NCBI GenBank assembly: GCA_035307765.1 | Contig: DATGHU010000011.1 | Location: forward strand, 1 to 64,000 | Source: a bacterium | Lineage (GTDB): Bacteria; Sysuimicrobiota; Sysuimicrobiia; Sysuimicrobiales; Segetimicrobiaceae | Reading direction: 5' to 3' | DNA length: 64,000 bases | Shown: positions 5,506-33,103 of the stretch, in pieces | Layout of the letters: each line of letters opens with the position of its first letter | Position numbering within the stretch: the stretch's first letter is position 1 | Notes under the pieces: generated by a model | What the model was told of the DNA's origin: nothing | The model's database searches: none | Seen by the model: the letters and a program-made list of their open reading frames with translations, nothing else | Program-made: the position numbers and the translations under genes

Positions 5506-5710
5506 GGCTCCGCCGTGCAGTCGTTCAGGCGCGAGGGTCCCGTAGCATCGCATTTCTTGATCCTACTCCCTCACCATCACCCTGTCGGTCGCGCGCACCC
5601 GAAACCCCAGAACATCGTCCCGGGCTCTCAACCAGCGCACCCCCGAACATATGCGGGACGAGGGCACACTCACTAGCAGTTCTTTGCACGCAGGTGGGGT
5701 TCCTATCCCG

Positions 5711-10116: not shown

Positions 10117-12030
10117 TTACCTTCGGTTCCTTAGATCAAAGAGCACAAACGAACGCCCCTCGCCAGCCACAGGAAGCCCTCCGTTAATCAGTTCTTCCAC
10201 AACGGCCGGCGGCGTCACGGCCCGAAACAATAACAAATACTCAGGATGGCGATAAATGGGATTAGCGGCGTCACGCTCGCCGAACAATTTGTACTCTGAT
10301 AGGTCCAGATCCCGACTATTCAGGGTTGGGTGTATTATGTCCAGCGGCAAACTGGCGGAAAAGGCCCGTGTATAACTAGCGACACTAGCCGGGGTGAAGT
10401 CAGACACAACCGAGTGGCCTTCGAGCGCCCTCAGGATTTGAGCGTAATCGCCCAAACCCACTGGTCTCGCAACAACATCTGGAGTAATTGCAAGAACCTT
10501 CAGGATCACCAGGACCAGCAGCATCCATGCAGGCCATGGACGGCTCTCGAGATGTTTGCGTAGAGCGAACACGAAGGCTGCGACCGTCCAACCAACGACG
10601 CAGATGGTATCTAGATTAAATGTAGGAAACCATTGCATGAAGTATCGAGGAAAAACTGCATACATAATAATGCATGCTCCGGCCGATGACAGTACAAAAC
10701 CAAAGACCCTCGCCTCTGAAGTTGTTAGAATAGGAATGTCTCCAAAAAGTCTAGCCCACGATAAGGAGATCTCGAACAAGACCAGGCCCACGATCGCTAA
10801 AGAAAGCGTGCTTACAGGAATCGCGAGCCATGTCGGCGCAAAGCCTCTTCTCGTCCAGGATATGGCAACAGAAAGCGCAAGTGATAGAAAGAAGCCCCCC
10901 AAATAAACAACGATGAATGACGCTACTATTCCGCGAATCACCCTTCTCAGTCGAGCGTTCAGCCCACCTAAACTGACCAATGCACCACACAAAATCACCA
11001 TTCCAAGAAGCATCACACCAATCATCACGCTCCCATATTTGACTGCCCCTTCCCCTGCGACAATGCGATGAATAAACGCGTAACCTAGGTCCGCGGAATA
11101 ACTATGCATTCTTTCCCACCATCCAACGGGCGGCGCAAACCCCGGATTCAGGATGTGGTGAGAGGAATAAAATTGGGTTGTATCCTGAGACCAATTCCCC
11201 CGGAACAACCGCTCCAGGTGAAGCCGATTTAATGCTTGAAATAGGAAATCTGTCGCCCATGTTCTAAGACCAACACCCGCCAAAACCTGGGCTTGTCGGA
11301 GTGCAAAAGCCATGATGAATGCAGACGCCACACAGATGAACAGCCGCAGACGGCTACGCCTTGCGATCAGTTCTGAATAAGCGGTGAGTTGCATCAAGCA
11401 AACCAGGGCGAAGGTATAGAAGAAAAAAATGTAATCCACAAAAAGAAGTATCAGCGCAATGATTAGCAAGGCAACGCTAGGAATGAGCTTATTGCGCGCG
11501 CGGACCAACTTAAAATGCACGAACAGGCACCCGAAAAATGCGGGGTATGAGAACGCGCGATGTATATTAAATCCCCACACGAATAACGCAGAGGAATCTA
11601 GGCATCCAAAAATTAAGAATAGTACTCCTCCAAGGCGAGACCCTGATAGATGCGTCCAAAATAGATATGCAACGTACAACCCGATTAGAAACGGGATGAC
11701 ACTCAATGCATTTTGAGCTTCTATCGAGCGAATTCCAATCTCAGATAAGAAGTAACTGAAGTAGATGCCAACGTTGCCGTGATGGATGTAGAGGTATGGA
11801 TGCGCTGCGGGATTTGGATTTGTCGCTTCATCCTGAAGGCCCGCCCATCGCCATCCAAATCGTTCAAGGTTCATTGCGCCGTGATAAGCTTCGTATGCCT
11901 CCCCTATGATGTCACTTGAAAAGCCCATGAAATTGTTGGGAATCCAGATATAAAGCCCCATGAGCAGGAACAGGATCAGATAAAAGGCGGGGGTCTGTGT
12001 GGTCCGTCTCAGCAACCTAGTCCCTTGCAC
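10117..12030 (-). CDS. Large multi-pass membrane protein of an unrecognised family (paralogue 1 of 3), GT-C-like
   Basis: 637 residues from a GTG start, with about 12-14 hydrophobic segments and a ~90-residue soluble tail. Shared with the genes at 12067-13554 and 25263-27449 are: SD at 39-40 after the first helix; HPYLYIHHGN (77-86); NxxR at 155-158; an acidic residue in an intramembrane VDY (198-200); LRQAQVLAGVG (244-254); and HHIL (291-294). An early acidic loop plus a loop motif before the second helix pair is how GT-C glycosyltransferases are built, but I do not recognise a named family. The gene is noticeably AT-rich compared with the right half of the window. Confidence 0.8.
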   Translation of the reverse strand: MQGTRLLRRTTQTPAFYLILFLLMGLYIWIPNNFMGFSSDIIGEAYEAYHGAMNLERFGWRWAGLQDEATNPNPAAHPYLYIHHGNVGIYFSYFLSEIGIRSIEAQNALSVIPFLIGLYVAYLFWTHLSGSRLGGVLFLIFGCLDSSALFVWGFNIHRAFSYPAFFGCLFVHFKLVRARNKLIPSVALLIIALILLFVDYIFFFYTFALVCLMQLTAYSELIARRSRLRLFICVASAFIMAFALRQAQVLAGVGLRTWATDFLFQALNRLHLERLFRGNWSQDTTQFYSSHHILNPGFAPPVGWWERMHSYSADLGYAFIHRIVAGEGAVKYGSVMIGVMLLGMVILCGALVSLGGLNARLRRVIRGIVASFIVVYLGGFFLSLALSVAISWTRRGFAPTWLAIPVSTLSLAIVGLVLFEISLSWARLFGDIPILTTSEARVFGFVLSSAGACIIMYAVFPRYFMQWFPTFNLDTICVVGWTVAAFVFALRKHLESRPWPAWMLLVLVILKVLAITPDVVARPVGLGDYAQILRALEGHSVVSDFTPASVASYTRAFSASLPLDIIHPTLNSRDLDLSEYKLFGERDAANPIYRHPEYLLLFRAVTPPAVVEELINGGLPVAGEGRSFVLFDLRNRR

Positions 12031-12066: not shown

Positions 12067-13554
12067 CTACTTCCCAAGCTCCAAGTCCGCTGGAGGAGAA
12101 GTTAGCGTGAGAACACGATAATCTGCAACGATGTTGAGCACCCGGTATACAGCCAGGAAAATCAACACAGTCACTGTCACGCGGCGACCAATACGCGGCC
12201 ATCCATCCCTTCCTCTCCCCATTCGCGTTATCCATACCATCGCATAGATCACAAATGCGTACGCTAGTAGCACGAAACTAATGATCATTGGGAATCTGTG
12301 GTGCATGTAAATCTCAACCGATAGAGGAGCAAAAAAATATAACCCTAGCGTCTCCGCACCTCCCACCAACGCAACCGTCTTGGCCGCCATCATTACCTGA
12401 TCGAGTTCAGCACTGTCGCCCTTCCCAATCAATCCCAAGAACCCCAACCCAGTAAACCCCGCAGCGACGACACCTCCCACAACTACCACGCCCAAAGTTA
12501 CAACTCCCAAGTATGGGGTCCAGAAGATCGTGACATATTGAAGAAATCCCCGTGCGATATGTGACAGGCTATCGTCCGGCACCGCAAACGGACGCAGCAC
12601 GTGATGCTGAAGATACCACTTGTCAATGTCCCGCATTGGTGGCAGAGGGAAATATATCAGATGGCTGTGCAGGAACGATGTCTTGATCACAGCCGAATAG
12701 TAGAGGTCCTTAGTCCAGAAATCGAATCCAAGCCCCCCAATGATTTGCAGTTGTCGCAACAGGAAGGGGATTGCGTAAACCAACAAGACAGCGGTGAGGC
12801 GCACACGTAGAGAAAATGAAGATTTCGTGGCCAATATCAATAGGGCCGCAAGGAAAAATGCAAAAACTAAGAAATCATAACCCACCATGAAGCCAATTAC
12901 GGTGCAAAGGAGGAACGCAATAATATGGGGGAGGTGCTTTTTCTGGCCTTCCTCCAACCATCGCAAGAGATGATAGCCTGACCCAAAAAGCGCCAGCCAA
13001 TGCCAGCCGCGAATGAGATTGACTGCAAAAACCAAATTGAAATAGTACTCTCCTGCCAGCAATGCCAGGAAAATTAACGCGAACAGAGCTGAACCGGATG
13101 CCTGACGCACAAATAGATATGCATAGTAGAGGCCCATGCAGAACGCTACAATTGTCATCAATACAGCAGGAACAAACGGGTGCGGAGAAAAACGTGCGAA
13201 CAGATAATATACTAATGCCCCAATGTTGACGTTGTGCGTGTACAAATAGGGCCCAACTCGCTGTATGAGCCAATGACCGGTGCCATCTTCAATGTAGTTT
13301 TCCCCCGCATCCCTGGACGACAGCGTCTCCCCGGGGGCAGGATAGCAAGTTATGTAGGTGACATATTGGCTGCAGTCTGAAGCCCACGGGAGCCACCCAA
13401 TTCTCTGTCCCCAAAGGATTAGGCCACATAGAACCAAAGCGGAAATCCCCAGCGCCAACCATTCTTCAGTCGCGTGTCCAGCGAAGCGGATCCGTGAAAT
13501 TCTTCCCTGGATCCCAATCAAAAGGTTCCCCTCGATCGCCCGACAGATATACAC
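12067..13554 (-). CDS. Large multi-pass membrane protein of an unrecognised family (paralogue 2 of 3), GT-C-like
   Basis: 495 residues from a GTG start, ending 36 nt before its neighbour paralogue. It carries the same ordered motifs: SD (59-60), GPYLYTHNVN (101-110), NLIRGWH (179-185), YDF (226-228), LRQLQIIGGLG (266-276) and HHVL (317-320). It lacks the long C-terminal soluble domain of the other two and ends soon after the last helix, so it is the shortest form. Together with paralogue 1 it forms an operon downstream of two methyltransferase genes. The role is unknown; a lipid-linked-sugar glycosyltransferase or polymerase is my working guess. Confidence 0.78.
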   Translation of the reverse strand: MYICRAIEGNLLIGIQGRISRIRFAGHATEEWLALGISALVLCGLILWGQRIGWLPWASDCSQYVTYITCYPAPGETLSSRDAGENYIEDGTGHWLIQRVGPYLYTHNVNIGALVYYLFARFSPHPFVPAVLMTIVAFCMGLYYAYLFVRQASGSALFALIFLALLAGEYYFNLVFAVNLIRGWHWLALFGSGYHLLRWLEEGQKKHLPHIIAFLLCTVIGFMVGYDFLVFAFFLAALLILATKSSFSLRVRLTAVLLVYAIPFLLRQLQIIGGLGFDFWTKDLYYSAVIKTSFLHSHLIYFPLPPMRDIDKWYLQHHVLRPFAVPDDSLSHIARGFLQYVTIFWTPYLGVVTLGVVVVGGVVAAGFTGLGFLGLIGKGDSAELDQVMMAAKTVALVGGAETLGLYFFAPLSVEIYMHHRFPMIISFVLLAYAFVIYAMVWITRMGRGRDGWPRIGRRVTVTVLIFLAVYRVLNIVADYRVLTLTSPPADLELGK

Positions 13555-14577: not shown

Positions 14578-15231
14578 CTATTCCGTAATAGTCCAATAAT
14601 AGTCGCCTGTATAACGAAGTTCATGAAAAAGTCGGCGCCACACCTCAGGGGAAAAATAGGTCAGCGCCGTCAACTGCCACCGCTCGAAATTCTGTCGCTG
14701 CTCTTCGGTCAGGAAGGAATCCACTTGCAAGTACTTGTGCGCCCGGCTCACCCGTTCCATTTCCCGGATGGCCTGCTTGCAACGCGCCAGCTCCAAGTTG
14801 TGAATAGTGTTTACCGAGATGACAAGGTCGAACGATTTATCGGGAAAGGGGAGCTGATCGGCGGTTCCGATTACCAAAAAGGGTTTGACGCCATCCATCG
14901 CATGCTCAATTGCATACGCCGAGACATCCAGCCCCGCAATCCGGACCCCCGGAATGACGCGCTGCAAATCGCTGAGCAAAAACCCTTTGGCGCACCCGAC
15001 ATCGAGGATCCGGTGCTCACGGGTGAGTCCATAGAATTCCTGCATGTGCTTTGCGACGGGGATCCAGCGTCCGTCGTAATGATAACCGCCGTATCCCTGC
15101 GTCCGGTCACCATCGAAGTATTCCTGCCCGAAACGGCGAGCAACTTCACGTTGGAGAGGTCTGGACCGCTCGCGCGCCCGTATCGGTCGCTTGATCTTCG
15201 GGTAGGAATCAAGAAGGTTCACTTCTCGCAT
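14578..15231 (-). CDS. Class I SAM-dependent methyltransferase
   Basis: 217 residues from ATG 15231, two bases after the stop of the upstream epimerase, so the two are probably cotranscribed. Motif I is RILDVGCAKGFLLSDL (74-89), followed by IAGLDVS at the acidic strand and FDLVISVNTIHNLE at motif IV. The N-terminal region (FGQEYFDGDRTQGYGGYHYD) resembles methyltransferases found near sugar epimerases. A sugar or lipid-linked glycan substrate is likely from context only. Confidence 0.8.
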   Translation of the reverse strand: MREVNLLDSYPKIKRPIRARERSRPLQREVARRFGQEYFDGDRTQGYGGYHYDGRWIPVAKHMQEFYGLTREHRILDVGCAKGFLLSDLQRVIPGVRIAGLDVSAYAIEHAMDGVKPFLVIGTADQLPFPDKSFDLVISVNTIHNLELARCKQAIREMERVSRAHKYLQVDSFLTEEQRQNFERWQLTALTYFSPEVWRRLFHELRYTGDYYWTITE

Positions 15232-15233
15232 GA

Positions 15234-16109
15234 TTAGGGTCTCGCCGTGGTCGCATACATCTGCTCGAACGTCGCGCGCATGGCGTCTTCGAAGCCCGAA
15301 AAGGAAAAAACTCCCACCTGTTGACGTAGGCGCGAAACATCAAATTCCCGGTGAGTCACACCACCGTTTCGATGAAGATGGGACACCGCGAACTCAAACG
15401 GTACAGCGCGCCTCAGCACCTCTACGACCTCTGCAAAAGAACGGCTGACCCCGGTGGCCACATTGAGCACGCCTGTCGCCTCGGTCTTGATGAGCCGCCC
15501 TACAATGCGAAGCAAATCGTTGATAAAAAGATGATCCCTTCTCTCCTCTCCTTGCCCAAACAGGCGGATGGAACGTTCTCGAATTATCGAACGGATGAAG
15601 GCGTTAGGACCATAGGAGTTGTGCGTATCTCCAGGACCAAAAACCGCAGTCGGGCGCAACACGAGCAGGGGGATACCCTTGGCCTGCATCGACTTCCGAA
15701 TCACACACTCAGCGGTGTATTTCGAGATTGCATAATAGTTCCCCCCCGGCGCCACGGGCGTGTCCTCCGTTATTGCCTGGGTCTGGATCGGGTAAACGGC
15801 GTCTGAACTGATGCAAACACACTTTGCGGGAGGGTGCGCCTCAAGAAAAGTACCGAGGTGCCCTGCCATCGCGATGTTGTCCATGAGCGTCCTCAGAGTA
15901 TCTCCCCTCTCGCGTGTGATCGTCGAGGCGAAGACCACAACCGTCTCACTGTCCACATGCGCTGCCAGTGCTTGCACCCCCTCTTCCAACCGCAAATCCA
16001 TCGTCCTCGAAGAAAACCCGAGGACATCACAATCCCCCTCACGCTGGAGATGTGCCTGCAGGCCGCTACCAATAAAGCCGGTGTTCCCCAAGATCACGAC
16101 TCTCGGCAT
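15234..16109 (-). CDS. NAD-dependent epimerase/dehydratase family protein (extended SDR)
   Basis: 291 residues. GNTGFIGSGL at the N-terminus is the dinucleotide-binding glycine motif, the catalytic Ser region is CISSDAVYP, and YYAISK contains the YxxxK pair. These are features of NDP-sugar 4-epimerases, 4,6-dehydratases and 4-ketoreductases. The C-terminal half contains RRDHLFINDLLRI, the usual substrate-domain HxxD motif. It is followed by a methyltransferase, so it may make a sugar that is then methylated. The exact reaction cannot be told from sequence. Confidence 0.85.
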   Translation of the reverse strand: MPRVVILGNTGFIGSGLQAHLQREGDCDVLGFSSRTMDLRLEEGVQALAAHVDSETVVVFASTITRERGDTLRTLMDNIAMAGHLGTFLEAHPPAKCVCISSDAVYPIQTQAITEDTPVAPGGNYYAISKYTAECVIRKSMQAKGIPLLVLRPTAVFGPGDTHNSYGPNAFIRSIIRERSIRLFGQGEERRDHLFINDLLRIVGRLIKTEATGVLNVATGVSRSFAEVVEVLRRAVPFEFAVSHLHRNGGVTHREFDVSRLRQQVGVFSFSGFEDAMRATFEQMYATTARP

Positions 16110-16244
16110 CAGATCTCAAACCCCCGCTCGCCCAGGATTCCCGTTCCATCGAATCCACCGAGGTGCGCGCCGGCGAGGTACTCACACCGTCTAAAATACT
16201 TCACGGGGGCAATCCCAAGGAACAAGGCAAGCGGCCGACCGATA

Positions 16245-17549
16245 TCAATCGATCATCCCCCGCCCCATGGAAACGTACCGGATTCCCTTGAATTCCTCCC
16301 GGCGCTTTTCGAGAGCGCCCACGCAGTCGATCACTACGGGGTTCCGCATGGCCCGCATGAGGGTAGCCGCATCAACCGTCTCAAACTCGTCCCAACCCGT
16401 CATGATCAACAAACAGTCCGCGTGGGCAAGGGCTTCATCCCGGGAAGAGGCCACCGTCGTGCCTTCTGCCAAAACCGGAGACTGCACAACGGGGTCGTAC
16501 GCCCGAATGGTCGCCCGCGACCGCAGGCTGGAAATCACGCTAAGCGCAGGCGAGTTCTTCAGTGAGTGGGTCCCCTTCTTATACGCCAAACCCCACACGG
16601 CAATCGTTGGCACCGGGACATAAGCGAACACCAGGGATTCAAGTTTGTCGAGAACCCACCGCAGTCGCCGGGCGTTGCATGCGACGATTGCTTCTATTAG
16701 AGAAGTGTCGGTTCCATACTCTTCCGCAAGAGTTCGTAGCATCACCAGATCTCGTTCCAAGTTGCCACCAGAGATCCCGAGGCCTGGGTGAATGTAGGCC
16801 GCCGGACCAATGCGCGCATCCAACCGGAGCGCGGGAATGACCTCCGACCAATCCGCGCCCACTCTCTCACAGAGGTCTGACAGCGTATTTGCGAAAGTCA
16901 CCCCACAAGCAAGATAGAGATTAATCGCCGCCTTCGTTAGCTCGGCACTTTCATATCGCATGCGCTGTACTGGACAACCGAAAAGTTCGAGTTCCCGTTT
17001 CAGTACATCGGGCAGCAGGCAGTCAGGAGCCTCGCACCCCAACATGATCCGCTCCGGATGAAGAACACGATCCACCGCCTGCCCGAACACCAAGGTCTCC
17101 ACCCAGTAGAACACGGCCAGGTGCTTATCGGGATGGTTCCGCCCGATGCGCTCTACCAGCGAGCGCGTGAAACCGGGCGGAAGTTGACTCATGAGGACCA
17201 ACGTGGTCAGGGGCTCCAAGTGCGGGATCGCTTCCTCCACGAGCTTACGGATGGCCGACACGTCACCGCGGTTATCCTCAGTGGTCGGGACATCCTGCGA
17301 AAGAACAACCAGGGGGCACGCGGCCAAGGTGGCAACGTCCGTGTTGAATGTCATCCTGGGGCGCGCGGATCGTAGGAGCTCGGCAAGTCCCGGCTCATGG
17401 ACGGGAATTTGTGATCTGGTGAGCGCTGCAATAATACTGTTGTCGCGATCGACCCCAATCACATCATCGCCTCGCGAAGCCCAGGCGATGCTGGTCACAA
17501 GGCCGAGATGCGAGAGCCCTAAGAAACCGATCGGCGCAGTCGGGGGCAT
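16245..17549 (-). CDS. UDP-glucose dehydrogenase homologue lacking catalytic Cys and Lys
   Basis: 434 residues with the full three-domain layout of nucleotide-sugar dehydrogenases: Rossmann start IGFLGLSHLGLVTS, central helix AELTKAAINLY, and C-terminal domain WGLAYKKGTHSLKNSPAL. The active-site GGxCFPKD loop is replaced by GISGGNLERD (258-267), so Asn263 stands where the nucleophilic Cys belongs. The Lys of the KITFAN helix is Gly216 (CGVTFAN), while a Glu at 151 may still match the PEF glutamate. Without Cys it cannot form the thiohemiacetal, so a full four-electron oxidation is unlikely. It may act as a simple dehydrogenase, an epimerase-like enzyme or a regulator. Confidence 0.82.
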   Translation of the reverse strand: MPPTAPIGFLGLSHLGLVTSIAWASRGDDVIGVDRDNSIIAALTRSQIPVHEPGLAELLRSARPRMTFNTDVATLAACPLVVLSQDVPTTEDNRGDVSAIRKLVEEAIPHLEPLTTLVLMSQLPPGFTRSLVERIGRNHPDKHLAVFYWVETLVFGQAVDRVLHPERIMLGCEAPDCLLPDVLKRELELFGCPVQRMRYESAELTKAAINLYLACGVTFANTLSDLCERVGADWSEVIPALRLDARIGPAAYIHPGLGISGGNLERDLVMLRTLAEEYGTDTSLIEAIVACNARRLRWVLDKLESLVFAYVPVPTIAVWGLAYKKGTHSLKNSPALSVISSLRSRATIRAYDPVVQSPVLAEGTTVASSRDEALAHADCLLIMTGWDEFETVDAATLMRAMRNPVVIDCVGALEKRREEFKGIRYVSMGRGMID

Positions 17550-17550
17550 G

Positions 17551-18459
17551 TCAGCTCAACGAGGAGGTCGCCAAATGAAGGAGTGTGCGGGACATCCAGA
17601 GGTCGTTTTCGAATGAAGTTTTGTTCGCGATCACCATCTGCTCAAAATGTGCAAGGTCTGCAGCCCATGTAGGGTCGGGTGCGGTGACTACCTCCCGGGT
17701 TTCATCTGGGACTCCACTCGGAAAACGGCGCCGCTGAATAACCAACTCGCTCGCGCCCCATTTCGTCAAGCCTTCCATTTGAAGTGCGCCTCGCGCCCCG
17801 ATCACTTCAATCGTCCACCGATTCTTCCAACTCAGGTAGCTACATTCAATCACGATACGGCGATCCGTCGTGGCAAGGATGCAGTGGTCAGCCCCCGTGA
17901 GCTCATGTGCACCCCGTTCCCAGATCAGGAAATCCGAACCGGCCCGGCCGAAGACGAAACCAGTCAAATCAACAAGATGGCTCGCCAGATCCTGCAAAAC
18001 CCCCAGCCGATCATCTCGCCACGTGCCGGCAACGCTTCCAGCGGTCCCGTACCCGTAAAACATCCTGGCTCGATAGACGTCCCCAATTGATCCGGCGGCG
18101 ATAAGATCTCGAAGTCTTATGACGTGGGGCTCGAACCGAAAGTTGTAGGATGTGTACCAGATCACTCGCCGCCGTTGTGCCGTCTGTTGCAGGTGATGCG
18201 CCGTTGCCTCGTCAGGAAATATCAACGGCTTCTCCACAAGCGCATGCTTGCCGCGGTTCAATAGAAAATCCAAAAGTTCGATCTTTACCTGATTCGGAAC
18301 CGCGAGCACGGCTGCATCATACTGCGCCAGCGGGCACTCCGAAAGGGTCCGATAGTCGGCCGCCGTGTTATAGGGATCCACCGTAGCAATGCATCGCCCA
18401 CCAAGCAATTGCTTCCGTTTCAACCCAATATTGCCATAGCCGACGACGAGGTATTTCAT
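17551..18459 (-). CDS. Gfo/Idh/MocA family oxidoreductase
   Basis: 302 residues from ATG 18459 (MKYLVVGYGNIG), whose ATGA overlaps the upstream stop; the frame is open to 18543 but that part is antisense-like shadow of the neighbour. The Rossmann motif GYGNIG is at 7-12 and the family EKP motif (VEKPL) at 75-79. Members interconvert keto and hydroxyl groups on sugars or NDP-sugars with NAD(P). Coupling to the nucleotidyltransferase-PfkB fusion suggests that both work on the same sugar. A single base separates its stop from the UGDH-like gene downstream. Confidence 0.85.
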   Translation of the reverse strand: MKYLVVGYGNIGLKRKQLLGGRCIATVDPYNTAADYRTLSECPLAQYDAAVLAVPNQVKIELLDFLLNRGKHALVEKPLIFPDEATAHHLQQTAQRRRVIWYTSYNFRFEPHVIRLRDLIAAGSIGDVYRARMFYGYGTAGSVAGTWRDDRLGVLQDLASHLVDLTGFVFGRAGSDFLIWERGAHELTGADHCILATTDRRIVIECSYLSWKNRWTIEVIGARGALQMEGLTKWGASELVIQRRRFPSGVPDETREVVTAPDPTWAADLAHFEQMVIANKTSFENDLWMSRTLLHLATSSLS

Positions 18460-19991
18460 CGGTATTGCGCCGACTTCTCCAGCGCGTCGAGCTTTTGCGC
18501 CACCTCCTGAGGGGTAACCGACATGTTGCCCTGTCGTTCGCACGCGTTCGCAGCTGCCACCGATCCGAGAATCGCGGCAACAACAATATTCTCGGTCACA
18601 CGCTGGGCCAGCGACGCGTACGCGAGCAATGCGTCACCCGCCCCGATTGGATCAACGATGTGATCGGCGAAGCTGTCGACCGTGAAAAACTCTCGGGGCA
18701 TGTTCCCGGGAGTCCGGTAGCCAATCAACCCTCGCTCGCCCAGCTTCAAGATCAGTGCCCGGCAACGAGCCGCTTGGAATAGCTTGAGGGCCAGCGGGCG
18801 GACGACGGAATCTTGATCCCCCAACGCGAATCGGGCTTCGCGCTCATTGGGGGTCAACAGATCAAACTCCGTGAAATCGAGAATGTTGCCCCACCGGTTG
18901 CTGACTTGGCTGTCCGCCACCCGGAGGGCCCCCGCCGGAATATACTCCTTGAGCTGCTTCACCGTATGGTTATTGAAGATCCCGTGCCGGAAGTCACTGA
19001 ATATAACGACCTCCGCTGGACTGGTGCGCAGGGAATCGCCGAGGGTGTCGAGAGCGTGCTCGGACACCGCGCGGTTGTCTACCCGATCTACCTGAAGCAA
19101 CCTGTATCCCTCGCTGAAGAAGCGCTCTTTGTACGTTGTCGGCCGAACCTTATCGATCACCGGAGCGAAATGAATGCCCGCGTGAATCATCTCCCGCACA
19201 ACGAATTCCTTCGGCTCGTCATCTCCGAGCACGGTCGAGAATGTCACCTCAGCCCCGGTAGCCTGCATGTGCTTGGCCACGGCCGCCGCTCCCCCCGCAA
19301 AAAGCTCTTTGCGGTCGTAGCGCACGCTCAATGTCGGCGACTTCGCGGTCGCACCGAGCAGGGAACAGTAGCAGTAGCTGTCGACGATCGTATCGCCAAG
19401 GACGTGCACGTGCACTCCACGAAAACGCTCCAGCGCCCGCCGCAGGTCGGCGAAGCTGATGCCTTCAGACTCCATCAAGATGAGGAGTTTATCAACAGCG
19501 ATCTTGGGAGGGTGCTCCTCGATAAGCGCGGAGGACGAGTACACGACATCCCCCGGTGTAAACAGGATCTCGCCACCATATGTTTCCAACGCTGCCATTT
19601 CGTCGCGGGTCTTCGACGGGAGGCCATTTGCCAAATATTCATAGCCTTTCGCGAAATAGTCCGGCTCAAGAAACAAAATGTTCTCCGTCGGGGTCGCATT
19701 ATGATCGATGATCACAAAGTCAACAATCTCAAGTGCCGCGAGATTGGTGGCCCGTAGCTCCTCAGGCACGTACGGCCGGTAATCGGCCTTTGTGATCTGC
19801 GCATCCGCGGTGATGCTGGCAATGAGCAGGTGAGCCTTATCCTTCGCATAGGCAAGATGACGCAGGTGCCCGGGGTGAACGATATCAAAAACCCCATGGC
19901 ACATCACGACCGTCTTGTTTCGCGGACGCTTGCCGATGATTTCAGCCACCACTTCTCGGGTTTTAATCTTCTGGCGGAAATCTGCGCCCAC
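18456..19991 (-). CDS. Cytidylyltransferase-PfkB kinase fusion, HldE-like with reversed domain order
   Basis: 511 residues. The N-terminal ~160 residues are a cytidylyltransferase-like domain with GVFDIVHPGH (33-42). Residues ~190-505 are a PfkB/ribokinase domain with FAGGAAAVAK (231-240) and the C-terminal signature DPIGAGDA (447-454). In E. coli HldE the kinase comes first and the transferase second; here they are swapped. HldE makes ADP-heptose from D-glycero-D-manno-heptose 7-phosphate via the 1,7-bisphosphate. This protein could do that or activate a different sugar. The Gfo/Idh gene overlaps its stop by ATGA. Confidence 0.82.
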   Translation of the reverse strand: MGADFRQKIKTREVVAEIIGKRPRNKTVVMCHGVFDIVHPGHLRHLAYAKDKAHLLIASITADAQITKADYRPYVPEELRATNLAALEIVDFVIIDHNATPTENILFLEPDYFAKGYEYLANGLPSKTRDEMAALETYGGEILFTPGDVVYSSSALIEEHPPKIAVDKLLILMESEGISFADLRRALERFRGVHVHVLGDTIVDSYCYCSLLGATAKSPTLSVRYDRKELFAGGAAAVAKHMQATGAEVTFSTVLGDDEPKEFVVREMIHAGIHFAPVIDKVRPTTYKERFFSEGYRLLQVDRVDNRAVSEHALDTLGDSLRTSPAEVVIFSDFRHGIFNNHTVKQLKEYIPAGALRVADSQVSNRWGNILDFTEFDLLTPNEREARFALGDQDSVVRPLALKLFQAARCRALILKLGERGLIGYRTPGNMPREFFTVDSFADHIVDPIGAGDALLAYASLAQRVTENIVVAAILGSVAAANACERQGNMSVTPQEVAQKLDALEKSAQYR

Positions 19992-20006
19992 GGGGCTCTC
20001 CTCTCG

Positions 20007-21002
20007 TCAGGATCGCTGCTGTCCGAGAAATCGAAACCACGCTTCCGTGGCCACCTGGATCGACTCCGGGGTCCAAACCGGGGCGGTCGCCCAATTCTCG
20101 AGGGTCTCCAGCATGCGGGCGACGCCATTTTCGAATGCCACATGAGGAGTCCACCCGAGATAATTGCGAATCTTCTGGGTATCGGCCCAGGTGCAATCAG
20201 GCTCCCCCGGACGCTTCGGCACATGGACAACATCGCCTTCGAGAAGTTCCACCAACCGGTTCACGCTCTGCGGTTGTCCCGCCCCGAGATTAAAGACCTC
20301 GCACGTGTAGGGCGACTCGGCCGCCAAGAAAAACGCGCGAGCAACGTCCGTCACATAGACAAAATCACGCGCTTGGGTACCATCTCCAACCACCGTAAAC
20401 GGGCATCCCTTGCATTTCTGGGCGAGGAAAACCCCAAACACCGCACCATACGCCCCCGCAGTGCGCGCACGGGGCCCGTAGGCATTGAAGATCCGCAGCG
20501 AGACGACCGGCAGGCCGTAGACTTTTCCCCAGTGCAACACCGCACACTCTCCCAGATACTTGCTCAACGCATAAGGATACTCTGGGGCGATCGCAGCGGT
20601 TTCCGGGGTCGGAACTTCCGGCATCGATCCGTAGCACGAGGAGGATGCCGCGTATATGAACTTCCGGACCCCCGCGTTCCGAGCAGCCTCTAATACCCGC
20701 AACGTTCCCATGACGTTGACCTGCATATAGACAAGGGGGTGCTCGATCGATGGGACGATGTCTCCAACGCCGCCAAAATGGAACACATAGTCAACGCCCA
20801 CAAACCATGCTGAGTCGGCAGGGAGGTCGTTTATATCCTCATGGCAAATGGCAACACGGGGGTTGCCCGAGTGTTGCGCCAGATTTTCCCGCCGTCCCGC
20901 AGCCAGGTTGTCGATAACAACGACATCACATCCTCGTTCAACCAGGAGATCCACCATATGGCTGCCGATGAAGCCAGCCCCCCCCGTAACGATGGCTTTC
21001 AT
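20007..21002 (-). CDS. NAD-dependent epimerase (UDP-glucose 4-epimerase-like SDR)
   Basis: 331 residues from ATG 21002. TGGAGFIGSHM (7-17) is the Rossmann motif, SSSCYG contains the catalytic Ser, and YALSK the YxxxK. SLRIFNAYGPRA and the ARDFVYVTDVARAF segment are typical of GalE/WbpP-like NDP-hexose epimerases. It precedes the HldE-like fusion with a 15-nt gap, and follows another epimerase gene on the same strand. The stereochemistry of the product cannot be told. Confidence 0.88.
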   Translation of the reverse strand: MKAIVTGGAGFIGSHMVDLLVERGCDVVVIDNLAAGRRENLAQHSGNPRVAICHEDINDLPADSAWFVGVDYVFHFGGVGDIVPSIEHPLVYMQVNVMGTLRVLEAARNAGVRKFIYAASSSCYGSMPEVPTPETAAIAPEYPYALSKYLGECAVLHWGKVYGLPVVSLRIFNAYGPRARTAGAYGAVFGVFLAQKCKGCPFTVVGDGTQARDFVYVTDVARAFFLAAESPYTCEVFNLGAGQPQSVNRLVELLEGDVVHVPKRPGEPDCTWADTQKIRNYLGWTPHVAFENGVARMLETLENWATAPVWTPESIQVATEAWFRFLGQQRS

Positions 21003-21054
21003 GCAGAGACCAACCTACTTTCTCCCGACGCTAGCATCCGCGCCCGTTTTGCCG

Positions 21055-22062
21055 TTAGACAAGATGTGATGCTTTGATCGTTTTGACATTATAATATCTG
21101 ACATCTTCAAGGGGGTTTGGAATTCTCCCCGCTTGAAACGCCGCGCATAGATCGGCGACTGCATCTTCGACTGTCCGTTTCGGCTCATAGCCCAATTCTC
21201 TTCGAATTTTATCGGACGACACATGGTAGGAACGTATGTCATCCGTGGGGGTGGTCTCCATAGCAATGGGCTTTAGATGGGGCATCTCGGTTGTCACGAT
21301 CGATCGAACGATTTCGCCCAACTCCGCGATGGAGTTATTCTGATACGAAGCATTGAAGATCTTCCCGGCGATTTGGTTCACGGGAAATTCGAGCAGGTCC
21401 GCATAGAGATCAGTGACATCTTCGATATGAATATTCGGACGCTTCTGCGACCCACCGAAGATCGTGATCTTGCGCTTATTCACGGCAAGGTTCGTCAATA
21501 TGTTGACGCTGAGATCCAACCGTAGTCTGGGCGAATACCCACAGACCGTAGCCGGCCTAATAATGACGGTCGTGAACTCTGGAGATTGTTGCTTCAACAG
21601 GACTGGCTCGCACAACCCTTTATATTTATTGTAGTCGGTTAAGGGGACGAGTGGGTGTTCCTCCGTTACATTCGGACTATCGCTCACGCCGTAGACGCTC
21701 GACGTCGAAGCGTAGACGAAGCGCCGCACGCCACTGTGCTTGGAAATTGTCACGAGGGGGTCGAACGCATCGTAGTTGATCGACTTACTGAGGGTGGGAT
21801 TCAGTTCGAAGCTCGGATCATTGGAGATACACGCCAAGTGAATCACGGCGTCGCACCCGGGAAGGGCCCGCTTGAGCAACGCCTGGTCACGGATATCCCC
21901 CTTGATCTGTTCAAGAGCCGGATTCGTCTCATGGGAAGCCAATACACGATCTCCAAACAGATACAGATCGACGATCTTGACACGATACCCGCGAGCCAGC
22001 AATTTCGGTACGAGAATCGCCCCGACGTACCCCGCCCCTCCGGTGACCAGCACAGTCTTCAT
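21055..22062 (-). CDS. NAD-dependent epimerase/dehydratase family protein
   Basis: 335 residues from ATG 22062. TGGAGYVGAILVPKLL is the nucleotide-binding motif, STSSVYG contains the catalytic Ser, and DYNKYKG the Tyr-x3-Lys. The C-terminal half has NIHIEDVTDLYADLL. The SPNVTEEHPLVPLTDYNKYK stretch is typical of SDRs annotated as SDR family nucleotide-sugar epimerases in LPS clusters. Its start overlaps the end of the GT2 gene upstream (ATGA), so the two are coupled. Confidence 0.86.
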   Translation of the reverse strand: MKTVLVTGGAGYVGAILVPKLLARGYRVKIVDLYLFGDRVLASHETNPALEQIKGDIRDQALLKRALPGCDAVIHLACISNDPSFELNPTLSKSINYDAFDPLVTISKHSGVRRFVYASTSSVYGVSDSPNVTEEHPLVPLTDYNKYKGLCEPVLLKQQSPEFTTVIIRPATVCGYSPRLRLDLSVNILTNLAVNKRKITIFGGSQKRPNIHIEDVTDLYADLLEFPVNQIAGKIFNASYQNNSIAELGEIVRSIVTTEMPHLKPIAMETTPTDDIRSYHVSSDKIRRELGYEPKRTVEDAVADLCAAFQAGRIPNPLEDVRYYNVKTIKASHLV

Positions 22063-22829
22063 GGTTTTGCCTTTTCCTTAAGCGAGGCCGTTTTCACCGA
22101 TCCCAGTCTTCCTCGCCAAACTCTCCCGACGCGGAGCCTCCACCATGTCCCCAAAATTACCGCAAGCGCCATCCGGATGTTGCGGAAAGTGATGGCTTTG
22201 GACTTTCCAAACGCTCGCTCCTGATGAATCAGGCCCACTTCAATAAAACTTCGCCCACCATCCAGCGCGTGCACCAACATCTCGGTCAAAAAGAAGAAGC
22301 CCGTGCTGCGGCTGGGAAGCGCCATTGCCAGCTGAGTAGGATACACCGTCGGGCCCTGATAGTAGTGAAGATGATGCCCAAACAACGTATTCAGGAGGGT
22401 AGTGCACACCCAAGTCATCACTCGACGATGCCACGCGCGCGCTTCGCGATTCGCGTGGTAGGGAATGATGAGGTCAGACGATCCCACGGCATCAAAGATC
22501 GCCCGAATTGAATCCGCGTGCACCTCGCGGTCACCGGGGAGGAAGCCGAAATACTCCTTTGTCGCTAGCCCCAATGCCGTCCGATATCCCCGGGCGATGC
22601 CCTCCTTGCTTCGGTTGTGAATAACCCGGATCCGCGGGTTGTCACGCGCAAGCCCCTCCGCCACTTCCGCTGTTCCATCGGTGCTACCATCGTCGACCAA
22701 AAGGATCTCATAATCGGTCAGCCCAGGCTGAGTTGCAGCGACGATATCGTGAATGGCGCCTTCGAGATTCCTGGCCTCGTTGTGTGCGGGGACGAATATA
22801 GAAAGCGACGGTCGGGACGTGGTCATCAC
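22059..22829 (-). CDS. Glycosyltransferase family 2, dolichol-phosphate-mannose-synthase-like
   Basis: 256 residues from a GTG/ATG pair. LSIFVPAHNEARNLEGAIHD is the GT2 opening, followed by ILLVDDGSTDGT, NRSKEGIARGYRTAL and FGFLPGDREVHADSI as the DxD-equivalent region. This arrangement is that of DPM1/GtrB/ArnC-like enzymes that load a sugar onto polyprenyl phosphate. Such a polyprenyl-P-sugar would be a natural donor for a GT-C-type membrane enzyme, which is of interest because three GT-C-like proteins lie close by. No membrane anchor is evident except a short hydrophobic patch near residue 210-225. Confidence 0.88.
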   Translation of the reverse strand: MMTTSRPSLSIFVPAHNEARNLEGAIHDIVAATQPGLTDYEILLVDDGSTDGTAEVAEGLARDNPRIRVIHNRSKEGIARGYRTALGLATKEYFGFLPGDREVHADSIRAIFDAVGSSDLIIPYHANREARAWHRRVMTWVCTTLLNTLFGHHLHYYQGPTVYPTQLAMALPSRSTGFFFLTEMLVHALDGGRSFIEVGLIHQERAFGKSKAITFRNIRMALAVILGTWWRLRVGRVWRGRLGSVKTASLKEKAKP

Positions 22830-22833
22830 AACC

Positions 22834-23868
22834 TCAGTATGGGCCGGGGAATCTGGCCTGAACGTCAGCCAGCACCTTGCCGGCTGATTCGTGTCGCCCC
22901 ATAGTGTCCAGGCAAGCCCGCATGATCGTCATGGGCGTGGGATGGAACGCCTGTTCAAGTGGCCTGGAGACTGGCGCAGGACAGTCAGGAAGAGTCACTC
23001 GTCGAACGGGAGCTTTCAAATCCGCGTGTGCTTCCTCCGCCGCGAGCGCCGCTATCTCACTAGAGAAGCCACACATGGCCCAACTCGTATCCGCGACCAC
23101 GAGTCGGCCAGTCTTCCTCAGCGAGCAAAGGATCGCGTCCCTATCGAGCGGTCGGATGCTCCGCGGATCGATCACCTCCGCGCTGACATCATATTCGGCA
23201 AGGACATCGGCTGCGCGAGTGGCCTCAAAGGCCATCAGCGACGCCCCGACGATTGTCACATCCGTACCCTCTCGAATCACCCGCGCAGTGCCAAACGGCA
23301 CCGACACCGGATCTTCTGGGACCTCGCCCTCCAACTCGTATAGTGCCCGGTTCTCCAACAATACAACCGGCGTATCACCCCGGAGAGCAGCACAGAGCAG
23401 TCCTTTGGCATCGGCGGGAGATGCCGGAGTTGCCACGTAGAGCCCGGGAAAATGGGCAAAGAGCGCCTGAAGGCTCTGCGAGTGCGTGGCCCCCTGCCCC
23501 CAGCCCCGACCAACAATACCTCGAAAAACCACCGGGACCCCGTGCTCAGAGGCGTACATGTACTTCCATTTCGCCGCTAGGTTTAGGATCTGGTCCAGAG
23601 CCAGGAACATGAAATCGTTTCTCGGATGGACAACCACGGGCCGTTTACCCATCGCTGCCGCCCCAATCGCAATCCCCGCAAATGCGTTCTCGCAGTTCGG
23701 GATATCGATCACTCGAGCCGGTCCAAATCGCTCGTACGCCCCCCGCGTGGTCCCGAATATTCCCTTGAAATCGTCCACACCGATGCCCGCGACGAAAATA
23801 TTCGGGTCCCTCTCCATACTCTGAACGAGGGCTTGGCTAATCGCCTGCCAGTACTTCAATCGCTGCAC
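22834..23868 (-). CDS. Alpha-ketoacid dehydrogenase E1 beta-like, thiamine-dependent transketolase family
   Basis: 344 residues from GTG. The N-terminal pyrimidine-binding domain and the C-terminal transketolase domain (VTIVGASLMAFEATRAAD, then EVIDPRSIRPLD) are those of pyruvate/2-oxoisovalerate dehydrogenase E1 beta. It pairs with the E1 alpha-like gene at 23969. No E2 (lipoyl acyltransferase) or E3 gene is nearby, so the usual acyl-CoA-forming complex is unlikely to be encoded here. In a sugar locus the pair may transfer a two-carbon unit or make a branched sugar; that is inference. Confidence 0.88.
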   Translation of the reverse strand: MQRLKYWQAISQALVQSMERDPNIFVAGIGVDDFKGIFGTTRGAYERFGPARVIDIPNCENAFAGIAIGAAAMGKRPVVVHPRNDFMFLALDQILNLAAKWKYMYASEHGVPVVFRGIVGRGWGQGATHSQSLQALFAHFPGLYVATPASPADAKGLLCAALRGDTPVVLLENRALYELEGEVPEDPVSVPFGTARVIREGTDVTIVGASLMAFEATRAADVLAEYDVSAEVIDPRSIRPLDRDAILCSLRKTGRLVVADTSWAMCGFSSEIAALAAEEAHADLKAPVRRVTLPDCPAPVSRPLEQAFHPTPMTIMRACLDTMGRHESAGKVLADVQARFPGPY

Positions 23869-23968
23869 AAATACCCCCGTTAAATCACAGGCATCGTAAC
23901 AAGCTGGGTCGAACGTCGGGACCGAAATTGGGGTGCTCTGTGTCCGTCTCCCAATCCCACCTCATTGA

Positions 23969-24961
23969 TCAGTACGTCCCCTCGAGTAGGCTATCGGGGG
24001 AAGGAAACGGACTGCGCTTCGCTACGGTCACGGCGTCAGCGATTTCTTGCTGAAACTCTCGGCGCCAGGATTGCAACTCGTCTCCGGCACAGACGGAGTG
24101 TCCCAAGCAATATTCTGAAAGTCGCTTAATCGGACACCGCTCCATCCACTCCTCAACTTCTGCTTTCGAGCGGTATCCTCGATCGAAATCCCACAGTGGT
24201 CCCACGTGCTCTCGCCAGCGATACGTCGCGCATTCCAGAAAGGACGGCCCGCCGCCCTCGCGACCTCGCTCCACCGCCTGCTGAGTTTCATGATAAACCG
24301 CAACGGCGTCGTTCCCGTCCACATGAGCCGACGGAATCCCATAGGACCGCACCCGCTCGTAGATCGCCCGGTCCGTCGGGTGCCGGACCGCCAATGGAGT
24401 ATGGGTTGAGTACAGATTGTTCTCACAAACAAATATCACTGGAACCCTGCGAACCGCCGCGAAGTTCAAGCTTTCGTGAAAAATGCCTTCCTCAACGGCG
24501 CCGTCGCCAAAGAAGCATACCGCCACCCTAGGCGTGTTGTCCATCTGGAATGCGAATGCCGACCCAACGGCCACCGCGATTGTTTGCCCAAGAATGGCAG
24601 AAGAGGCAATGATTCCAACGTCAGGCTGCGTGAGGTGCACGGATCCACCCCTCCCCCTCGCTGCCCCGATCTCCTTCCCGTAGAGTTCCCCCACCATGCC
24701 GATCAGGCTACCGCCCTTCGCCAAGTAATGCGCGTGACACCGATGGCCGCTATAGATGACATCTTCTCGCTGAAGTGCGGCGCAAACCCCGACAGCCACA
24801 GCCTCTTGGCCGATCGAAAAGTGCGTGGGAGTGCGCATCTCTTGCTCGGCATAGAGTTCGGCGAGCGTTTCTTCGACGCACCGGATGCGCATCATCTGCC
24901 GCAGCAAGGTGCGCACAAGGATACCGGGGACTTCCTGAGCGTCCTTTCGAGTAATGGTCAT
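23969..24961 (-). CDS. Alpha-ketoacid dehydrogenase E1 alpha-like, thiamine diphosphate-dependent
   Basis: 330 residues from ATG 24961 (MTITRKDAQE); upstream in-frame codons to 25012 are not conserved-looking. The thiamine diphosphate/Mg motif runs from GDGAVEEG (152-159) to ENN (180-182). FSIGQEAVAVGV (48-59) and SGHRCHAHYLAKGG (71-84) are standard E1 alpha elements. It encodes the partner of the E1 beta-like gene, 100 nt upstream of that gene on the minus strand. Stand-alone E1 pairs in glycan clusters have no settled function that I can name. Confidence 0.88.
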   Translation of the reverse strand: MTITRKDAQEVPGILVRTLLRQMMRIRCVEETLAELYAEQEMRTPTHFSIGQEAVAVGVCAALQREDVIYSGHRCHAHYLAKGGSLIGMVGELYGKEIGAARGRGGSVHLTQPDVGIIASSAILGQTIAVAVGSAFAFQMDNTPRVAVCFFGDGAVEEGIFHESLNFAAVRRVPVIFVCENNLYSTHTPLAVRHPTDRAIYERVRSYGIPSAHVDGNDAVAVYHETQQAVERGREGGGPSFLECATYRWREHVGPLWDFDRGYRSKAEVEEWMERCPIKRLSEYCLGHSVCAGDELQSWRREFQQEIADAVTVAKRSPFPSPDSLLEGTY

Positions 24962-25262
24962 TGAGTGTCTAGCCGTTGGTGGGGTGTTCCAATCACAAAG
25001 GCCCCCCGTCACCGCATGTGCCCAGTTTCACCGGAGATATCCGGGGTTCAAGCAGCGTACCCCCCCGTCACGGCAAACCCGTTCTCAGACCAACGTAGAG
25101 GGGGCGCCAAATGGGGCATCATGTGGGAGTTCGATTCAAATAACACAATTCCTCCGAAAAGAGTCAGCCCCTCGCAGGTGGCTCATAGGGGGTGGGTCGC
25201 CACGAGCGCCGCGGTGGCGCTGGCTTAGGGTTGGCCTCTGCGTTTTTGGAGGGGATTGGCGT
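24962..25262 (-). other. Intergenic region between membrane paralogue 3 and the E1 alpha-like gene
   Basis: 301 bases with no convincing coding frame. A 6-bp perfect hairpin (AGCGCC/GGCGCT with a 5-nt loop, 25205-25221) lies about 40 nt beyond the stop of the 25263-27449 gene, but no T-run follows on the minus strand, so I only note it as a possible transcription-attenuating element. I did not find a good -35/-10 pair for the E1 alpha gene. Confidence 0.4.
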
Positions 25263-27449
25263 TCAGTAGTTCTTGCTTAGCTTTACCGTCCGCCGCTGGC
25301 CTTCAATTACTTTGAAAGCTGGTCCGGCAAACGCCAACCGAATGGCCGGGTCCAGCTTGACAATTGCCCACATATCCCACGGACCCCCATCTTCGGCGAC
25401 GACGGTGTTGTGGAACGGGCCTGTGCCTTCGCGCGCACTACGCACTAGAGGCTCACTTGAGCATTGCGAGAGACGTGCCCCCGGCCGCAGGGACACGAAG
25501 GCTCCAGCCATATACAATGTCGGCGTGCGTATGCAAATATAGTATTGAGGGTGCAGGTAATTGGTGTTGGTAGCTCGGTCAGCTTCCCATAATTTGTCCC
25601 CGGATATCAACTGAGTGATCCCCCCCGCTCCCTTTTCGTATTTCTCTTCGGAGACGAGGTCGTCCGCATAGGCCCATGCCCCCGTAAAGTAGGCAATGGG
25701 CGCGGCGTACACGTCGCTGATGAACGTCGTCCCTCGGTATGGCGGTTGTGCCAACTGACGCATGAACTGATAGTCGGTAGGCGATATCGCCGTGACGTAG
25801 ACGGTTTGTATCCTCGCCCAGTAGACAACCGCCAACAAGAGCACGACGAGCGAAACCCCCCGCGCGATATGCGGCACAACGACACGTCTCAGATGCTCCC
25901 CGGGTCGGCGCCAGGGGGGAGAAGCTGTTCGAGGCTGCGCACCCACCGTACGGTGACTCGCCTGGGCGATTGCAATCAGCATGTAGAGACAGAGGGCTGT
26001 CCACACATCCACAATGAAAACGGCCAGCGGTACGTAACGGACTAAGTATCCCTGAGAAAGGTACCCGGGCGAAAGCACGTACAAACACACATACCCCGCC
26101 CCAACGGCCACTAGATATCTGAAACCCCCCATGAGGTTGCCATCATCGTGAGGCCGAAAGAGCGGTTGGTCAGCCCACCAGACCACAATCAATCCCAGGA
26201 GATAAGCACCGGCCAATCCCGCAAGCAACACAACAAGGGGAAAATAGCGCTGGATCGTCCCCAGCCAGATCGGGGCGAAATCAGCGCCGTAGAGGTGCCG
26301 GTAATACAACCCATATCCGGCGGTGGCGAAAAGGACGAAAATCACGAGGCCGAGGCGGTGCCAGACGCGCTCATCGCCCGGGGCCTTTGATGTGGAAATA
26401 GCTCCCTTTATGCGAACGCCAGTGCGGACCAGCCATGTGACGGTCACGACCCACATCAGCCAAACGAGATATGGCGTATTGACAAGCACCCCGAATTTAC
26501 CGAGGGTGTGGAGAAACAACTTGATGCTGAGATATCCGCGAGTATCGGGGTTATCACGCCAGTAGACAATGTGGTGCTGCAGGAAGAACTGCAGCGTATG
26601 AATGGCCCCGCTTTCCCCGCCGGATTGGATGTAGAAATTTCGATTCAAGATCGTGCGCTGGAAATCGCTCCAGGTTGTCGCCAACCCGAGAAATGCGACA
26701 TTCTGCCCGATCAATCCCCCTAACGCAACAATCGCCCCCGCCCCGGCAATTACCGCGGCGCGAAAAATGAGACCTGGCTGCTTCCAGTAAATGAGCAACC
26801 CATAGCATACGCAGGTCGCGACCGTAAAGATTGCGAAATTGATCTCGAAATAGAACAATGCCACGCAGGTGAGAAAGAACAAGCCCCCCGCCCGACGAGC
26901 GTGCCGGCCACCCAGGGCTAGAACACAGAGCAGGCAGGCGAAGAAGAAAAATCCATGCCACACTCGAAACGAATTCACCTCCCACTGCATAAATGACAAG
27001 TAGTCGGTGGCAAGAACAGCGCAGACCAGGAAGGCAAAAAGATTTCCCGCAATGCGCGAGAAAAATGTAAAACACATGTAGATACCAGCCGAACCCACCA
27101 AGAGTGCCAGCAGCGCAATCTGCCACTCAACGCGCGTCAGCCCCAAGCGCATCAGGAGCAAAACCGGAAGGCGTGGAAAGTTGCCCTCGTGTGTATACAC
27201 ATAAGGATGCGCGGCTGGATCAAGGGAATACGCTTCGTCCGTGAGCCCTAACGCTCCACCAAAACCGAAATGAAGCAAATTCCGGGCGTGCATATAGGCG
27301 GAGAAACTCTCATTGTTGTCCGACCCGTAGGGCAGAAAATGCGACACGGTCAGCACGGCACTGACCAGCACCAAGTACAATCCGAGGGCCAGCCAGAGAT
27401 ACCGTTGCCGATGACCACCCCTCTGCTGTGCAGGCGCGGATTGGCCCAT
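25263..27449 (-). CDS. Large multi-pass membrane protein of an unrecognised family (paralogue 3 of 3), GT-C-like
   Basis: 728 residues from ATG 27449. The frame is open to TTG 27485, but that TTG is part of a good -35 box and a -10 box ends 7 nt before ATG 27449, so the shorter start is preferred. The ordered family motifs are SDNNES (43-48), HPYVYTHEGN (81-90), NSFRVWH (159-165), FE in a membrane segment (~201-202), LIGQNVAFLGL (246-256) and HHIV (292-295). After about 12 helices it has a ~200-residue soluble C-terminal domain. An acidic first loop and an HPY..TH.GN second loop recall GT-C enzymes. The function is unknown. Confidence 0.8.
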   Translation of the reverse strand: MGQSAPAQQRGGHRQRYLWLALGLYLVLVSAVLTVSHFLPYGSDNNESFSAYMHARNLLHFGFGGALGLTDEAYSLDPAAHPYVYTHEGNFPRLPVLLLMRLGLTRVEWQIALLALLVGSAGIYMCFTFFSRIAGNLFAFLVCAVLATDYLSFMQWEVNSFRVWHGFFFFACLLCVLALGGRHARRAGGLFFLTCVALFYFEINFAIFTVATCVCYGLLIYWKQPGLIFRAAVIAGAGAIVALGGLIGQNVAFLGLATTWSDFQRTILNRNFYIQSGGESGAIHTLQFFLQHHIVYWRDNPDTRGYLSIKLFLHTLGKFGVLVNTPYLVWLMWVVTVTWLVRTGVRIKGAISTSKAPGDERVWHRLGLVIFVLFATAGYGLYYRHLYGADFAPIWLGTIQRYFPLVVLLAGLAGAYLLGLIVVWWADQPLFRPHDDGNLMGGFRYLVAVGAGYVCLYVLSPGYLSQGYLVRYVPLAVFIVDVWTALCLYMLIAIAQASHRTVGAQPRTASPPWRRPGEHLRRVVVPHIARGVSLVVLLLAVVYWARIQTVYVTAISPTDYQFMRQLAQPPYRGTTFISDVYAAPIAYFTGAWAYADDLVSEEKYEKGAGGITQLISGDKLWEADRATNTNYLHPQYYICIRTPTLYMAGAFVSLRPGARLSQCSSEPLVRSAREGTGPFHNTVVAEDGGPWDMWAIVKLDPAIRLAFAGPAFKVIEGQRRTVKLSKNY

Positions 27450-27455
27450 CCCAGT

Positions 27456-27485
27456 ATTATCGTTTAGGGTTGCACTCTCTCGCAA
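27456..27485 (-). promoter_or_regulatory. Putative promoter giving a leaderless mRNA for membrane paralogue 3
   Basis: On the minus strand TTGCGA (27485-27480), 18 bases, then GATAAT (27461-27456), then only 6 bases before ATG 27449. Transcription starting 6-8 nt after the -10 would begin at or next to the start codon. The same geometry occurs at 63730-63758. Seen in sequence; activity untested. Confidence 0.5.
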
Positions 27486-33068: not shown

Positions 33069-33103
33069 TTCCGGGGATCGATCGCCGGACACCGATCTCG
33101 GCC

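Follow-up and report, generated by a model that had tools for sequence, protein, structure and literature searches.

A Conserved Clade of Cysteine-Less UDP-Glucose Dehydrogenase Homologues Encoded with a Putative Higher-Carbon Sugar Cassette

We describe a widespread and strictly conserved branch of the UDP-glucose 6-dehydrogenase (UGDH) family that appears to have given up the second half-reaction and carries no annotation beyond nucleotide sugar dehydrogenase. The member studied here, UGDHN, is encoded at positions 16245–17549 (minus strand) of a 64,000-nucleotide stretch of bacterial DNA, referred to below as the window. It has an asparagine (Asn263) at the site of the catalytic cysteine and keeps the catalytic lysine (Lys206). 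Judged from these residues and from the neighboring genes, the most likely reaction of UGDHN is a two-electron oxidation at C6, a secondary alcohol, of an NDP-heptose or NDP-octose.

The open reading frame runs from 17549 to 16245 with an ATG start, and its 434-residue translation has no internal stops. Its three-domain architecture exceeds the curated Pfam cut-offs (89.8, 81.8, and 82.7 bits for PF03721, PF00984, and PF03720, against 27, 25.4, and 30), which places the protein in the UDP-glucose/GDP-mannose dehydrogenase fold family. In NCBIfam, the one cut-off that UGDHN passes is that of the general subfamily of nucleotide sugar dehydrogenases; every equivalog cut-off lies far above its score. 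The AlphaFold model (mean pLDDT 94.3, pTM 0.89) confidently predicts a UGDH fold, and its top structural matches are the UGDHs BceC, UgdG, and human UGDH (TM approximately 0.89). The differences between UGDHN and its nearest relative fall mostly on third codon positions (259, against 116 and 87 at the other two), an excess expected under purifying selection. The initial annotation had described the domains as intact and the gene as no decaying pseudogene, and the Pfam domains, the pLDDT, and the third-position excess bear this out.

The loop that should hold the nucleophile reads GISGGNLERD, where the Asn is residue 263 (codon AAC). The initial annotation had recognized this replacement, and it had correctly named two homologues in the window as internal controls. 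These are a canonical UGDH with Cys266 (46786–48093, minus strand) and a divergent Cys-bearing homologue (4120–5553, minus strand), in which the Cys is residue 270 for the 4120–5505 reading and 286 if the reading frame starts at 5553.

The roles of the residues are known from the UGDH of S. pyogenes (SpUGDH). The residues that act in the first oxidation are Lys204 and Asn208. The general base, Asp264, activates a water held by Thr118, and the covalent intermediate forms on Cys260 (PMC4794789). UGDHs are four-electron oxidases, and a survey of 229 sequences treated the Cys as invariant (PMC4794789). We compared 81 Cys-less clade sequences (the window protein and the best 80 of 169 relatives) with 50 Cys-bearing homologues, using S. 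pyogenes numbering. In 81/81 clade members, the Cys260 site is Asn and the Thr118 site is Gln. The Glu145 site is Phe, Leu, Val, or Ile (Phe in UGDHN). The equivalents of Lys204, Asn208, Arg244, Asp264, and Lys320 (K206, N210, R246, D267, and K324 in UGDHN) are present in all 81 sequences, and those of Glu141 and Glu201 are also invariant. Going by the SpUGDH roles, the residues for alcohol oxidation survive in the clade and those for the thioester step are gone. Among the residues expected of four-electron NDP-sugar dehydrogenases (UGDH, UDP-ManNAc dehydrogenase, and GDP-Man dehydrogenase), the Cys of GGxC and Thr118 are missing, while Lys204, Asn208, and Asp264 are found. A two-electron reaction, as suggested in the initial annotation, is a sensible prediction from this pattern of kept first-step and lost second-step residues. 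The changes at Thr118 and Glu145 had escaped the initial annotation, as had the cassette and the kinship with LmbL and CcbL described below.

The catalytic Lys had also been described as lost, at Gly216 in the KITFAN motif. That was the wrong position. The catalytic Lys204 of SpUGDH belongs to the AELxK...N motif, and the KITFAN position is absent from the list of 18 invariant UGDH residues (PMC4794789). The true catalytic Lys of UGDHN is K206, in SAELTKAAIN, which never varies in the 81 sequences. At the Gly216 position both window controls have Lys, and the Cys-bearing homologues have Lys (38/50) or Arg (10/50). A change of Tyr10 to His was considered as a further lost second-step residue and was dropped; His is also present in 11/50 of the Cys-bearing homologues.

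Two other readings of the residue pattern fare badly. UGDHN might have no catalytic activity and instead regulate or scaffold the other enzymes of its cassette, as the loss of a catalytic residue would allow; we regard this as very improbable, because the Lys, Asn, Arg, Asp, and UDP-binding Lys do not vary in any of the 81 sequences, whatever their phylum. The chance is slimmer still that UGDHN remains a four-electron enzyme with Asn263 or another residue standing in for the Cys. The invariance of the Asn does mean that it has some function, but Asn is no thiol nucleophile, relatives have Thr at this site, and the Thr118 that would hold the hydrolytic water is missing too.

To find relatives, 84,980 species genomes were scanned with two peptide patterns, neither of which covers the Cys site. 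Of the 169 relatives detected, we retained the best 80, and every one of these has Asn in place of the Cys and Gln in place of Thr118. A sequencing or assembly error, which the initial annotation had allowed for, is practically excluded, as these 80 sequences come from independently assembled genomes. A conserved Cys-less clade, the existence of which had been left as a question, is thus real (Asn in 81/81). The record titles of the best 80 of the 169 relatives span around 14 phyla; most are metagenome-assembled genomes, and single phylum labels are possibly wrong. Named isolates belong to Bradyrhizobium, Tardiphaga, Azospirillum, Sulfidibacter, Polynucleobacter, and Pacificispira. Among 100 relatives searched, three proteins from the same family are 63–65% identical and one farther off is 44% identical, and all four read GGN. 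The spread of UGDHN is patchy, with presence in 3/11 other genomes of the window's own genus and family. In the Actinomycetota the clade was found in only 2/396 genomes. No relatives were found on viral contigs, and the best matches listed for plasmids reach at most 35% identity, which is the level of canonical UGDHs.

The gene lies in a cassette that is tied to the Asn clade and not to canonical UGDHs. Neighbors were counted in the 46 loci that span 19 kb or more (full flanks) among the best 80 of the 169 relatives, with the surroundings of 20 canonical UGDHs as controls; Fisher values for the association were computed without regard to the relatedness of the loci. All cassette genes in the window are on the minus strand, in two blocks (14578–25012 and 35435–37382). 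A Gfo/Idh/MocA oxidoreductase (GFO, 17551–18543; Pfam) ends one base before the start of UGDHN and is present in 46/46 loci and 0/20 controls. The same counts hold for HldEr (18456–19991; Pfam, and rfaE domains I and II in NCBIfam), a cytidylyltransferase-like domain followed by a PfkB kinase. This order is the reverse of that in HldE, and HldEr contains both the HxGH and the GAGD motif. Next to it are two extended SDR proteins recognized by Pfam and motif, the GalE-like SDRb (20007–21002; 44/46 loci) and SDRc (21055–22062; 43/46), each in 0/20 controls. The Asp-Glu motif of 4,6-dehydratases was looked for in both and is absent.

The second block encodes a transaldolase-family protein (TAL, 35435–36433; Pfam and NCBIfam TIGR02134; 39/46 loci, 0/20 controls), a GmhB-like phosphatase (HAD, 36172–36870; NCBIfam; 33/46, 0/20), and a GmhA-like phosphosugar isomerase (SIS, 36735–37382; Pfam and NCBIfam; 32/46, 1/20). 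The reading frames of TAL (domain from approximately residue 91) and HAD (at the N-terminus) are over-long. Beyond the end of UGDHN are SDRa, an extended SDR of the NAD-dependent epimerase/dehydratase family (15234–16109; Pfam), and MT, a class I SAM methyltransferase (14578–15231; Pfam), with homologues in 70/80 and 59/80 related loci, respectively. The usual order in the clade is SIS, HAD, TAL, SDRc, SDRb, HldEr, GFO, UGDHN, SDRa, and then MT and the E1 subunits. Cultured non-pathogens with the cassette include Bradyrhizobium sp. LTSP849, Tardiphaga robiniae, and Azospirillum griseum. A family 2 glycosyltransferase (GT2, 22059–22829; Pfam) accompanies the cassette in the closest relatives only (L123–L125).

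By homology, the cassette looks built to supply the activities needed for an NDP-heptose or NDP-octose. The substrate of UGDHN would probably be a nucleotide-activated heptose or octose formed by the transaldolase, the GmhA-like isomerase, the HldE-like kinase/nucleotidyltransferase, and the GmhB-like phosphatase. The C6 of such a sugar is a secondary alcohol, so its oxidation ends at a 6-ketone; the Cys is then dispensable, and loss of the thioester apparatus is expected. UGDHN would abstract the hydride from C6, with Lys206, Asn210, and Asp267 serving alcohol oxidation. With the Cys, the water-holding Thr, and Glu145 gone, it would neither form nor hydrolyze a thioester. The ketone would then be reduced by the adjacent Gfo/Idh enzyme or spent in a dehydration. 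The constancy of the Gfo/Idh neighbor suggests that one enzyme oxidizes and the other reduces, with C6 epimerization as the result. We infer, with somewhat better than even confidence, that UGDHN is an NAD-dependent dehydrogenase confined to the first half-reaction, acting on an NDP-heptose or NDP-octose from the cassette, and that GFO reduction or dehydration of the 6-ketone follows. Most of the cassette roles are assigned by homology, and the transaldolase and SIS enzymes could also feed an ordinary heptose supply.

The residue pattern suits any two-electron oxidation at C6. Cys mutants of bacterial UGDH still carry out the first half-reaction and can convert alcohol to aldehyde and back. 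UGDHN could in that case oxidize an ordinary NDP-hexose at its primary C6 alcohol and pass the 6-aldehyde to the Gfo/Idh enzyme or to the E1-type TPP enzyme. We consider this unlikely, as the cassette encodes a full supply line for an NDP-heptose or NDP-octose and the sole relatives with an assigned role act in octose synthesis. Given that the cassette indicates a heptose or octose, the ordinary UDP-sugars proposed as assay substrates in the initial annotation may give no activity.

These relatives are LmbL and CcbL, which belong to the biosynthesis of the lincosamide octose. This pathway uses a transaldolase (R), an isomerase (N), a kinase (P), a phosphatase (K), and a nucleotidyltransferase (O), followed by L, M, Z, and S (PMC4351081, PMC12945683). 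The window SIS protein served as a query against 393 genomes from a single actinobacterial genus (taken as Streptomyces), and the surroundings of its matches were examined. In five genomes, a nucleotidyltransferase, GHMP kinase, Gfo/Idh, SIS, SDR, UGDH homologue, HAD, and aminotransferase occur together, with a transaldolase seen in four of the stretches read. Three of the five clusters keep the published order lmbRSOPZNML, with HAD after L. In cluster L167 the SIS protein begins with a carrier-protein domain, as for lmbN; in L173 the Gfo/Idh protein ends with such a domain, as for ccbZ. The identities between L167 and L173 (K 64%, S 74%, O 65%, N 71%, Z 64%, P 59%, L 62–63%) match the published lmb/ccb values (63, 74, 64, 71, 64, 59, and 63% in the same order; PMC4351081). 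L167 therefore very probably encodes LmbL of the lincomycin pathway, and L173 CcbL of the celesticetin pathway. In the putative LmbL and CcbL, Thr takes the place of the Cys, site 118 is Gln, and site 145 is Leu; the Lys, Asn, Arg, and Asp are all retained.

Three more clusters of the lincosamide-like octose kind (L166, L168, and L169), also from Streptomyces-type genomes, encode SIS and Gfo/Idh proteins without a carrier-protein domain, so their product may be a different octose compound. Thr-type Cys-less homologues also occur elsewhere, as GFAGGTLGRE at L122:8906–10285 (G011, from the window's family) and GFAGGTLGRD at L128 (G534). The L122 gene is flanked by homologues of window genes 33104–34039 and 34187–35386; the window has both neighbors but lacks such a gene between them.

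In an IQ-TREE phylogeny, a single branch (support 99/95) parts all Cys-less proteins (the N clade, the LmbL type, and the Thr-type L021 and L128) from all Cys-bearing ones, and it stays at 99 with the motif loops masked. The N clade (100/100) and the LmbL clade are separate, each with support of 99–100. The tree is unrooted with long branches on the Cys-less side, and it does not fix the order of the N and T types. UGDHN is no orthologue of LmbL, as it falls in a separate clade with Asn instead of Thr at the Cys site.

A 2020 PNAS study reportedly assigned 6-epimerization, 6,8-dehydration, 4-epimerization, and 6-transamination to LmbM, LmbL, CcbZ, and CcbS. If LmbL is a 6,8-dehydratase, the Cys-less fold would begin that reaction by C6 oxidation. 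Together with the kinship of UGDHN with LmbL and CcbL, these assignments favor a redox-neutral reaction for UGDHN, in which an NDP-octose would be oxidized transiently at C6 and then epimerized or 6,8-dehydrated with return of the hydride, as LmbL may do. The Gfo/Idh partner in 46/46 loci suggests instead a separate reducing enzyme, and we give this reading a low probability, a shade above that of the hexose reading. The two clades are far apart on long branches, and the reaction of UGDHN may differ from that of LmbL. Net oxidation to a 6-ketone remains our preferred assignment.

In the window, the cassette also includes subunits of E1-beta type (E1b, 22834–23868; 16/46 loci) and E1-alpha type (E1a, 23969–25012; 17/46), both TPP enzymes by Pfam and both in 0/20 controls. 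No E2 gene is among the window reading frames scanned. E1 subunits without E2 hint at a TPP carboligase, and we speculate that the pair possibly builds a branched sugar. In a broader proposal, which we hold to be possible but doubtful, the cassette would make an undescribed nucleotide-activated higher-carbon sugar for the surface polysaccharides of many phyla; UGDHN would make the C6 ketone, and in loci with E1 subunits the TPP enzyme would add a carbon unit to a ketone to give a branched sugar.

The window also encodes an HddA-like GHMP kinase (27716–28783), an HddC-like nucleotidyltransferase (31194–31976), and a second Gfo/Idh protein (32001–33245), the best match in the window to LmbZ-type proteins. 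Besides the HldEr cassette, the window may carry another set for a higher-carbon sugar, of the GDP type. Four long reading frames in the polysaccharide region have no Pfam match (10117–12030, 12067–13554, 25263–27485, and 28802–30157).

The clade points to an uncharacterized higher-carbon sugar pathway of environmental bacteria. It also provides a sequence rule, in which a GG loop with N or T replacing the Cys, together with SQ for ST, would distinguish probable two-electron enzymes from makers of uronic acids. No description of the Cys-less clade or of this cassette was found in the literature searched; most subscription journals lie outside that search and may already contain a remark on the missing Cys of LmbL.

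The cassette occurs in some Bradyrhizobium loci, and a role of UGDHN in bradyrhizose synthesis was therefore suspected. A published gdh primer was used as a marker to pick photosynthetic-type genomes; 0/10 of these encode an N-clade protein, and the idea was rejected. The bradyrhizose locus of photosynthetic bradyrhizobia (PMC4743980) shares distant homologues of HldEr, SDRb, SDRc, SIS, MT, and a transketolase/E1-like subunit with the cassette, but it has no match to GFO or TAL in the 39 kb examined. The putative locus (L120 and L121; G264:C1:1960500–1999500) resembles a related higher-carbon sugar cassette.

The ADP-heptose pathway (GmhA, HldE, GmhB, HldD) uses the same types of isomerase, kinase/nucleotidyltransferase, and phosphatase as the cassette. 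The cassette differs in its HldEr, which has the reversed domain order and scores under the equivalog cut-offs, and it adds the transaldolase, UGDHN, and GFO and has no HldD equivalog. Canonical UGDHs (BceC, UgdG, and human UGDH) share the fold, the first-step residues, and the three Pfam domains with UGDHN, but they have the Cys260, Thr118, and Glu145 that are replaced in UGDHN, and their genes are without such a cassette.

The closest known counterpart of UGDHN is LmbL, from lincomycin synthesis. Both LmbL and CcbL have the UGDH fold without the catalytic Cys, Gln for Thr118, a lost Glu145, and the kept Lys204, Asn208, Arg244, Asp264, and Lys320. All are encoded with a transaldolase, SIS isomerase, HAD phosphatase, kinase, nucleotidyltransferase, SDR, and Gfo/Idh protein. 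They differ from UGDHN in the Thr at the Cys site and score only approximately 100–150 bits against the window protein. Their clusters use a GHMP kinase and a separate nucleotidyltransferase in place of HldEr, and serve antibiotic synthesis, whereas UGDHN is found in polysaccharide loci.
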